A DNA stretch of 64,000 nucleotides from Rhodococcus sp. ABRD24. GTDB lineage: Bacteria > Actinomycetota > Actinomycetes > Mycobacteriales > Mycobacteriaceae. The position numbers were made by a program, and so were the translations under genes. The DNA lies in assembly GCF_004328705.1 (NCBI RefSeq), contig NZ_CP035319.1, positions 3,968,001-4,032,000 of the forward strand. The letters are read 5' to 3'. Position 1 is the stretch's first letter, and each line of letters starts with the position of its first letter. Positions 21,273 to 23,529 of this stretch are shown here, piece after piece. The notes under the pieces were generated by a model. It did no database searches and was not told the DNA's origin. It worked only from the letters and a program-made list of their open reading frames with translations.

Positions 21273-22391
21273 GTGTCGCCTTTTGCCCGTATCAACACCG
21301 CCAAGTCGCCCCTTCTCTACGTCGTGGTCGCCGCGCTCTTCGCGACCCTCGTCGTGGGCGGCGCACTTGTCGTCACCAAGCACAAGACGATCACGCTGGA
21401 CGTCGACGGCGACACGCTGTCCCTGACCACGCTGCGCTCGGATGTGGGTGCTGTGCTGGACAGTGCGGGCTATCCGGTGGGTGAGCACGACGTGGTCGCG
21501 CCCGGCGTCGATGCCAAGCTGTCGGACGGCGACACCGTCGTCCTGCGCCGTGCCCGTGAGATCCTGCTGACCGTCGACGGGCAGACCCGCACGGTGTGGT
21601 CCACAGCGCTCACGGTCGACGACGCGATGCGTCAGCTCGCCCTGGCCGGGGACGCCTACGTTTCTGCGTCCCGAGGCCAGCGCATTCCGCTCGAGGGTGT
21701 GGCTCTCGACATCGTCAATGCCAAGACCGTGAGGATCTCCGACGGGGGCGCACCGGCCGCCGAGTTGCGGGTCGCGGCCCCCACCGTGGGTGAGCTGCTC
21801 GCCGCGACCGATGCGCGGCTCGAGCAGGCCGACACCGTGGTGCCGGCGCCCGAGACCCCATTGGCTGACGGCCTCGAGATCGTCGTGACCCGCAGCCGTA
21901 CCGAGACGCGCACCGAGACGCTTCCCATCGCCGCGCCGGAGCATCGTGTGGACGACCCGAAGCTGATGCAGGGCAAGACCGCGGTCGACAACCCGGGTGT
22001 CCCCGGTGAGCGCATCGTGACGGTGTCCGTGCAGACCGTCAATGGCGTCGAGACGGGTCGCCAGGAGCTGTCCTCGAATGTGTTGCGTGAGCCGGCTCCC
22101 GCCGTGATCCGCGTCGGCACCATGCCCGAACCGGCGGTGCGCAACGGCTCCACATGGGATGCGCTCGCGCAGTGCGAGGCCACCGGTAACTGGGCGATCA
22201 ACACCGGCAACGGTTACTACGGCGGCCTCCAATTCAGTCAGAGCACATGGGCGGCGTACGGCGGCACGCAGTATGCGCCGACGGCCGACCGTGCGACACG
22301 CGAGCAGCAGATCGCGGTGGCTGAGAAGGTCCAGGCCGCACAGGGCTGGGGTGCGTGGCCGTCCTGCACCAGCAAACTAGGCCTCCGGTAA
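21273..22391 (+). CDS. rpfB: Resuscitation-promoting factor RpfB, copy 1
   Basis: Cell-wall lytic transglycosylase-like enzyme that cleaves peptidoglycan and promotes exit from dormancy. The 372 residues comprise an N-terminal membrane anchor ([20 protein letters not shown]), three DUF348 ubiquitin-like repeats (about 45-215), a G5 adhesion domain (about 215-285), and the lysozyme-like Rpf domain from about 294. That last domain holds the catalytic Glu in [12 protein letters not shown] and a second Cys in GAWPSCTS for the usual disulfide. GTG 21273 is chosen because it aligns with the ATG of copy 2 and has CAGGGAA before it; GTG 21240 is the alternative. Copy 2 follows after 10 bp. Confidence 0.9.
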
Positions 22392-22401
22392 AGGAATTCC
22401 G

Positions 22402-23529
22402 ATGTCGCCGCTGTCGAAGATCAACTCGAGTCGTTCACCCGTCCTGTACGCCGTGGTGGCCGCGACCCTCGTGACACTCACGGCCGGCGGTGGCATCGCC
22501 ATCGCCCAGCACAAGACGGTGACCGTCGACGTCGACGGCGAACTGGTCAGCGTGGGCACGATGTCGTCCGACGTCAACGGCGTGCTCGCTGCCGCCGGCT
22601 ACTCGCTGGGTGAGCACGATGTGGTTGCCCCCGCGGCGGATTCGGGTCTGGACGACGGCGACACCGTGGTGCTGCGCCGCGGCCGTGAGGTCGCGCTCAC
22701 GGTCGACGGTGAACCTCGCACCTTGTGGACGACGGCCCTCACCGTCGACGAGGCACTCGACCAGTTCCGGCTCGCAGGCGACGTGCACGTGTCGGCATCG
22801 CGGTCGCAACGACTGCCGCTCGAGGGTGCGGACCTCGACGTGCTGAACCCGCGCACGGTGAAACTGGTCGACGGCGCCGCCGCTCCGGTCGACGTGCGCC
22901 TGGCCGCCCCGACGGTGGGGGAGTTCCTCGCAGCGAAGGGCACCCCGCTCGAGCAGGCCGACACCGTCGAACCGGCGCCGGAAACCCCGCTCACCGACGG
23001 TATGGCGGTCACCGTGACCCGCGGTCGTGTCGAGACCCGCGTGATCACCGAACCGGTCGCGCCGCCGGAGGAGCGCATCGAGGATCCGGCGATGAACATG
23101 AGCCGCACCGTCGTGGAGAATCCGGGGGTCGCCGGCGTCGCGGACGTCACGTACGAGGTCACCACCGTCAACGGCATCGAGACGAGCCGCAAGCCGGTCG
23201 GGACCGCCGTGACGACCCCGGCACAGCCGAAGGTCGTCCGAGTGGGCGCCAAGCCGGGCACCGAGGTGCCGCCGGTACGCGACGGCGCCACGTGGGACGC
23301 GCTCGCGCAGTGCGAGGCCACCGGTAACTGGGCGATCAACACAGGCAACGGTTTCTACGGCGGCGTCCAGTTCGACCAGAACACGTGGGAGCGTCAGGGC
23401 GGGCTCAAGTACGCGCCCCGCGCCGATCTCGCGACCCGCGAGGAACAGATCGCGATCGCCAGCCGGACGCAGCAGACGCAGGGCTGGGGTGCGTGGCCCT
23501 CGTGCACCAGCAGGTTGGGCCTGCGTTGA
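22402..23529 (+). CDS. rpfB: Resuscitation-promoting factor RpfB, copy 2
   Basis: 375-residue paralogue with the same layout as copy 1: membrane anchor ([20 protein letters not shown]), three DUF348 repeats, G5 domain and a C-terminal Rpf lysozyme-like domain with the catalytic Glu in [12 protein letters not shown] and two Cys. ATG 22402 has AAAGGAA at a good distance. Only 10 bp separate it from copy 1, so both lie on one transcript. Conservation is strongest in the catalytic domain, where about 60 nt are almost identical, and weaker in the DUF348 and G5 parts. M. tuberculosis has a single rpfB at this place. Confidence 0.9.

Follow-up and report, generated by a model that had tools for sequence, protein, structure and literature searches.

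RpfB is a resuscitation-promoting factor with DUF348, G5 and Rpf domains. The RpfB protein of Mycobacterium tuberculosis (5e27, 3eo5, 1xsf, 4emn, 4kl7) has the same domains as the two proteins analyzed here and its gene occupies the same slot before ksgA. MtrA binding and a single rpfB-ksgA transcript were reported for this species (PMC6265350, PMC6009663). Four rpf genes are described for Rhodococcus erythropolis KB1, including Rpf-2 (G5, two DUF348) and Rpf-3 (G5, three DUF348) (PMC6534110), and a later paper gives Rpf2 three DUF348 domains, which are required for full activity, and describes it as muralytic (PMC11583912). RpfB of Rhodococcus sp. GX12401 (378 amino acids; three DUF348, G5 and transglycosylase domain) was studied as an enzyme, and the same work aligns the RpfB sequences of R. 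ruber, R. hoagii, R. fascians, RD6.2 and M. tuberculosis as a single gene (PMC9580463). Muralytic activity is reported for relatives of the genes analyzed here (PMC6534110, PMC11583912, PMC9580463). In R. erythropolis RIA-643, four of six rpf genes were reported to be up-regulated during infection with phage WC1 (PMC10986025). RpfB results are carried between Rhodococcus, Nocardia and mycobacteria as if a single gene were involved.

In Rhodococcus sp. ABRD24, two complete RpfB-type genes stand head to tail, with 10 nt between them, directly 5' of ksgA. The window, which is the whole stretch of DNA analyzed (64,000 nucleotides, positions 3968001-4032000), comes from a genome assembled as a single contig of 5.10 Mb, and seven places encoding an Rpf domain were found in this genome, the pair included. 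The gene order is metG (minus), tatD (plus), a pirin gene (minus), copy 1, copy 2 and ksgA (all plus), and the features used below are the following:

19132..20112, plus strand: tatD (open frame), conserved neighbor upstream
20095..21219, minus strand: pirin gene (open frame), between tatD and copy 1
21228..21245, plus strand: MtrA-type direct repeat, two GWNAY halves whose 5-base cores are 6 nt apart, 45 nt before copy 1
21273..22391, plus strand: copy 1 (type-1 RpfB), GTG start, 372 amino acids
21390..21884, plus strand: copy 1 DUF348 region, residues 40-204 as analyzed; no type-defining columns, apparently exchanged between copies
21900..22121, plus strand: copy 1 G5 domain, residues 210-283; type-specific
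22146..22367, plus strand: copy 1 Rpf catalytic domain, residues 292-365; Cys301-Glu302 by sequence position
22158..22223, plus strand: copy 1 catalytic tract, residues 296-317; near-identical to copy 2
22392..22401, plus strand: 10-nt gap; AGGA right behind the copy 1 stop, likely ribosome site of copy 2 (by eye)
22402..23529, plus strand: copy 2 (type-2 RpfB, grouping with RpfB of Mycobacterium and Nocardia), ATG start, 375 amino acids
22519..23013, plus strand: copy 2 DUF348 region, residues 40-204 (domain search)
23032..23253, plus strand: copy 2 G5 domain, residues 211-284 (Pfam)
23284..23505, plus strand: copy 2 Rpf catalytic domain, residues 295-368; Cys304-Glu305 by sequence position
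23296..23361, plus strand: copy 2 catalytic tract, counterpart of 22158-22223
23559..24470, plus strand: ksgA, directly 3' of copy 2

Coordinates and Pfam searches confirmed what a preceding sequence-only reading had reported, namely two full-length RpfB-type genes (372 and 375 residues) 10 bp apart, at the place of the single M. tuberculosis rpfB and with identical domain order. In each copy, three DUF348 stretches are followed by one G5 and one Rpf domain (Transglycosylas, PF06737), all above the cut-off, and the Rpf domain was recognized with E-values of 5e-36 (copy 1) and 5e-34 (copy 2). Over the whole protein the copies share 60% identity. Both carry a hydrophobic stretch at the N-terminus (by eye) and, according to alignments with solved RpfB, the catalytic Glu that follows a Cys in the Rpf head. 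The dN/dS ratios calculated for the window and three relatives (0.13-0.18 for copy 1, 0.12-0.19 for copy 2) indicate that both copies are under purifying selection. The slot between tatD and ksgA is occupied by the pair, and the pirin gene separates tatD from copy 1. A pirin-type gene between tatD and the rpfB pair recurs in other Prescottella, and a pirin match was also found before R. ruber rpfB; P. subtropica, R. xishaensis and R. spongiicola have no pirin gene at this place. An Rfam search of 20900-23700 gave no match up to E 1, and scanning for promoter and terminator consensus sequences yielded one weak minus-strand match of each kind. Among 73 matching records of a plasmid collection, one reached 98% query cover at 68% identity, and this is a 2.66-Mb Nocardia farcinica record.

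The sequence-only reading had explained the pair by a lineage-specific duplication with subsequent specialization of the wall-binding DUF348/G5 regions and a catalytic domain that was kept alike. Two full-length copies that adjoin each other are in line with such a history, but the distribution of the pair among genomes argues against it. In our family survey, for which the seven best candidates per genome were scored, copy 2 as query matched 240 of 251 genomes at E 1e-45 and two or three RpfB places were found in 34 of the 251. Copy 1 as query matched all 14 genomes of Prescottella (the R. equi group, g1, comprising P. equi, P. defluvii, P. agglutinans, P. subtropica and some Rhodococcus species). 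The pair is carried by 14/14 Prescottella genomes, by 17/20 of the erythropolis/opacus/jostii genus (g23) and by 3/18 of the ruber/rhodochrous genus (g27), where R. aetherivorans, R. zopfii and G177 hold it; all 38 genomes of the two latter genera were additionally inspected around the locus. The remaining 199 family genomes carry one copy (188) or none that was found (11, six of them Nocardia, g22, and five incomplete genomes of g4). Thus, a duplication is supported, but it is old and inherited across three genera rather than special to this strain, and the pair is general among relatives within the genus (14/14) but not in the family (34/251).

Among the best 80 matches to copy 2, 79 named loci comprise 24 pairs, seven loci with type 1 only and 48 with type 2 only, a list biased toward type 2 because it was drawn with copy 2. 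Pair and single loci share the slot before ksgA, and in 45 pair loci (some genomes fetched twice) the order of the types is identical as well. The gap between the copies ranges from -1 to 56 nt in these 45 loci, many of which represent one genome fetched twice. One of the 48 type-2-only loci (L148) holds a broken copy 1. It belongs to the Prescottella genome G003 (L148, L035, L036), in which copy 1, like metG and tatD, is split into pieces in different frames; this genome is only 79% complete and sequencing errors are likely behind its broken genes. In another genome (G014:C9:54825-56839), a further Rpf-domain match lies about 0.5 kb behind a full RpfB, and eight matches were counted in this genome.

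To the rooted full-length tree, 77 proteins picked from those fetched contributed. Here, we found a type 2 clade of 40 rows (support 100/99) that contains the copy 2s together with RpfBs that occur singly, from Rhodococcoides, the R. maanshanensis group, Antrihabitans, Aldersonia, Nocardia and Mycobacterium. In the type 1 clade (20 rows, support only 88/73), the copy 1s are accompanied by the RpfBs that occur singly in the R. ruber/rhodochrous group and in G060, and the two types are joined at 99/97. When G5 and Rpf alone were used (69-row tree without the far outgroup), type 1 comprised 33 rows with a support of 100/100. A single clade of the Prescottella copies was rejected by an AU test on G5+Rpf (p 0.0002), and on this result, together with the family distribution, we reject a local or recent duplication. 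AU tests also rejected Mycobacterium with g28 outside both types (p 0.018 at full length, 0.017 on G5+Rpf) and the Nocardia line plus Mycobacterium outside (p 0.005). The groups of all these AU tests were chosen after inspection of the trees, and Mycobacterium sits on a long branch.

Copy 2 falls into one clade with mycobacterial RpfB, whereas copy 1 lies outside it in the type-1 clade. M. tuberculosis RpfB (5e27) was matched by copy 2 with 300.8 bits and by copy 1 with 253.8 bits; for the heads of RpfC and RpfE the order was reversed (87.7 and 82.4 bits for copy 1, 74.6 and 73.6 bits for copy 2). That copy 2 belongs to a different Rpf class, an outcome that the sequence-only reading had named as speaking against its own view, was rejected on the basis of the tree (100/99 with mycobacterial RpfB) and of the 5e27 match, which place it in the mycobacterial type. 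Judged by these comparisons, it is copy 1 and not copy 2 that departs from this type, and copy 1 is probably a paralogue of mycobacterial RpfB.

The two types differ in their heads. Type-defining columns, which we defined by a residue present in at least 60% of each type with at most 20% of the other type's residue (33 + 36 rows, 69 in total), were absent from the N-terminal part (0/39) and from DUF348 (0/165), but amounted to 9/86 in G5 plus linker and 10/82 in Rpf, so that 19 of the 168 columns of the G5 and Rpf part define the types; a stricter rule (85% in both types, 52 rows) left three columns. Separate trees of the two regions, which had been proposed as a check, gave corresponding results. 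G5+Rpf separates the types, whereas DUF348 mixes the copies. On the DUF348 tree the type labels require five changes, both copies of the ruber/aetherivorans/zopfii group stand intermingled in a clade of 18 rows (95/88), and monophyly of copy 1 was rejected (AU p 0.004). The earlier statement of divergent DUF348/G5 parts therefore holds for G5, which is type-specific, but DUF348 is not what separates the types. Similarly, specialization of wall-binding regions fits only G5 and the linker; for DUF348, the absence of defining columns, the AU test and the signs of conversion described below speak against it.

The type-1 head residues recur in outgroup families and, to judge from the alignment and its three fixed columns, the type-1 state appears to be the older one. 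This recurrence would also be expected if the G5-Rpf half of type 1 had come in by recombination from a source close to g4 or g24 and been joined to an RpfB stalk. When outgroups were added to the G5+Rpf tree, type 1 joined g4 and g24 (88/84) and type 2 joined g9, g10 and others, and the two gene halves gave conflicting trees; this topology would mean either a split of the types at the base of the family or an import of type 1. However, g4 and g24 are long branches, shared older residues would give the same look, the full-length tree unites the two types at 99/97 and on G5+Rpf with outgroups a topology that holds them together was not rejected (AU p 0.377). We consider an import rather improbable and prefer two old RpfB types that were inherited side by side.

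The near-identity of about 60 nt around the catalytic Glu, which had been noticed before, was borne out. The two copies agree at 97% of the 60 nt that encode copy-1 residues 298-317, and the longest exact run comprises 44 nt from position 22161. Over residues 296-317, 19 of the 21 codons for the same residue are identical compared with 11.7 expected from the codon usage of nine open reading frames of the window (P about 2e-4; 0.0014 when evaluated as a scan over the whole gene), which is more than codon bias gives. To compare the copies within genomes, copy 2 was shuffled among congeners (20 pair-holding genomes, 5000 permutations, eight regions, uncorrected P per region). The identity of copy 1 and copy 2 of the same genome at residues 296-317 was reached in 0/5000 permutations, with a small effect (0.883 vs 0.859). 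An own-genome excess was also obtained for DUF348 parts 1, 2 and 3 (P 0.0002, 0.0066 and 0.024), but in these 20 genomes it was absent from the N-terminus (0.32), G5 (0.22), residues 284-300 (0.15) and residues 318-372 (0.28). The excesses amount to about two points of identity and change little when R. aetherivorans is dropped. In one assembly of R. aetherivorans (L171), the copies share 397 nt exactly from codon 72 on, in the DUF348 region, and the flanks differ; if the assembly is right, this stretch would be a recent conversion tract.

Codon preference plus constraint instead of conversion might produce the same within-genome likeness of the catalytic tract and DUF348. The third-position identity in the tract is also high across lineages (0.70 where residues agree), copy 1 of the window is as close to copy 2 of P. 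defluvii as to its own copy 2 (19/22 codons), and the small size of the permutation effects points in the same direction. On the other hand, codon preference should act alike elsewhere in the gene, but the excess is confined to DUF348 and the tract, and the 397 identical nucleotides in R. aetherivorans also speak against such a mechanism. We regard this explanation as unlikely, although it keeps some weight. The data support gene conversion between the copies as the process by which DUF348, as well as the 22-codon tract at the catalytic Glu, would have been exchanged. The earlier suggestion of a catalytic domain kept alike by conversion or selection is thus retained for the tract (0/5000), but not for the rest of the Rpf domain (residues 318-372, P 0.28), which holds type-specific residues. 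For the lineage-specific duplication as a whole, near-identical nucleotides and own-genome excess at the catalytic Glu are favorable, but the occurrence of the pair in three genera, the rejection of a Prescottella clade (p 0.0002) and the contrast between 0 type-defining columns in DUF348 and 10/82 in Rpf are not. It is refuted with respect to age and DUF348, stands for G5 and the short catalytic tract and, taken in full, is very improbable.

As a weak proxy for the species tree we used a KsgA tree of 51 loci, which is only moderately resolved and places P. subtropica with the R. triatomae group. On this tree, the state of the locus (both copies, type 1 only, type 2 only) changes at least eight times. 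In R. marinonascens and G117 (type 2 only), about 15 codons of copy 1 remain, and their stop overlaps the start of copy 2. The first 36 nt of these remnants share 26 (R. marinonascens) and 24 (G117) matches with the copy-1 start of R. jostii and 18 each with its copy-2 start; with R. erythropolis they match less (20 and 17 for copy 1, 18 and 18 for copy 2). The remnants were read by eye and then compared base by base; tblastn did not list them. In R. ruber, scraps match copy 2 of R. aetherivorans at residues 2-60 and 355-375, and a piece at 90-105 has its best match in copy 1 of R. aetherivorans. In R. phenolicus, scraps match copy 2 of R. zopfii and G177 at residues 52-80 and 364-375. The longest of these copy-2 pieces reached 39.3 and 36.2 bits, and since reversed-sequence controls of up to 32.7 bits exceed the smaller pieces, the order of the pieces along the gene carries much of the argument. 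No convincing copy-2 scrap was detected in 14 of the 16 distinct type-1-only genomes searched, and the region upstream of type-2-only genes gave matches no better than controls. In six Nocardia genomes without full RpfB (L250-L255), tatD and ksgA lie close together, and in five of the six a stub between them matches the RpfB N-terminus only (residues 1 to 26-39), suggesting that rpfB was apparently lost altogether there.

Judging from these relics and the KsgA tree, either copy has been lost repeatedly. If single-copy lineages had never had the pair and the scattered pairs reflected several gains or transfers, its patchy occurrence (3/18 in the ruber/rhodochrous genus) would find a simple explanation. 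However, the identical type order and slot before ksgA in 45 pair loci and the remnants that the absent copy has left in R. ruber, R. phenolicus, R. marinonascens and G117 make several independent gains hardly credible.

Upstream of copy 1, we observed the MtrA-type repeat listed above, for which the motif was taken as described in PMC6265350. In 79 of 80 loci (the 79 named loci and the window), a loose form of this box lies no more than 150 nt ahead of the first rpfB, compared with 1.6 loci expected from mononucleotide shuffling. A strict form occurs in 73/80 loci (23/25 pairs, 7/7 type 1 only, 43/48 type 2 only), a count that is descriptive only since this form was derived from the alignment of the same loci. 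Before copy 2, over the final 100 nt of copy 1 and the adjoining gap, the loose box was found in 0/25 pairs. One conserved box before copy 1 and the short gap point to a single transcript, and it is likely that copy 1 and copy 2 are carried on it. By the M. tuberculosis precedent, ksgA is probably part of the same transcript.

Taken together, these data make it probable that the locus is an old, inherited tandem of two RpfB types and not a local product, in which the heads differ, the stalks have been exchanged and both genes would be read from one MtrA-controlled transcript. According to trees, position and relics, the tandem would go back to an ancestor shared by Nocardia and Rhodococcus in the broad sense, and probably also by Mycobacterium. 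Reduction at the same locus would have followed, which left lineages with both genes, type 1 only or type 2 only. Its domains and known relatives suggest that each copy most likely acts on the wall while anchored in the membrane, with a DUF348 stalk and G5 that would take the lysozyme-like Rpf head to its place within the peptidoglycan. Differences between the copies appear to persist in the heads (G5, linker and most of Rpf), whereas the stalk and the tract at the catalytic Glu would be copied between the neighbors by gene conversion, as the permutation statistics and the exact 397-nt tract suggest. With the conserved box and the short gap, both copies are probably expressed from one MtrA-controlled transcript with ksgA. 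Such an arrangement would most likely serve to supply, in a single regulated dose, two enzymes that cut the wall and reach equally far but differ in their preference for substrate or partner. More tentatively, and with some doubt on our side, RpfB might be viewed as two ancient enzymes and the tandem as a two-headed unit for wall cutting, whose heads, of permanently different specificity, come from one operon and sit on stalks kept alike by conversion; Mycobacteria and Nocardia (type 2 only) and R. ruber/rhodochrous (mostly type 1 only) would then live on opposite halves.

With an old pair that has type-specific heads and swapped stalks, the name rpfB probably does not denote one and the same gene throughout the relatives of this bacterium. 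Should two paralogous types exist, RpfB of the R. ruber/rhodochrous group is no stand-in for mycobacterial RpfB, and one-copy species offer natural single-type strains for a direct comparison of the role of the head type. The GX12401 enzyme may be a case in point. Its rpfB primer encodes MSPFTKI, four of the seven named type-1-only genes start with VSPFTKI, and this RpfB is perhaps type 1.

When the locus is compared with known systems, a close counterpart is found in R. erythropolis KB1. Its Rpf-2 and Rpf-3 are very likely this pair, because R. erythropolis NBRC 15567 carries it, and two RpfB-type genes in one Rhodococcus were therefore already known. The accessible parts of the KB1 accounts do not mention a tandem, two types, loss or conversion, and in the literature searched (titles and abstract openings, and part of the matching papers) we did not find a tandem rpfB pair, two types or reciprocal loss. 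Adjoining RpfB-like or DUF348-G5 matches were also seen in families f2, f3 and others of the order (G288:C7:47075-49594, G295:C1:3080125-3082238, G333:C127:2371-4483, G287, G351), and several of the second matches lack the Rpf part. The tandems of G288, G295 and G333 resemble the pair in that RpfB-like genes adjoin, but their gaps are wider, and in several of them the second match has no Rpf part; only G295 entered a tree, and no placement was obtained. Thus, the pair is a variant of a known family and not a new system, but it is real, conserved and of older history than first read.
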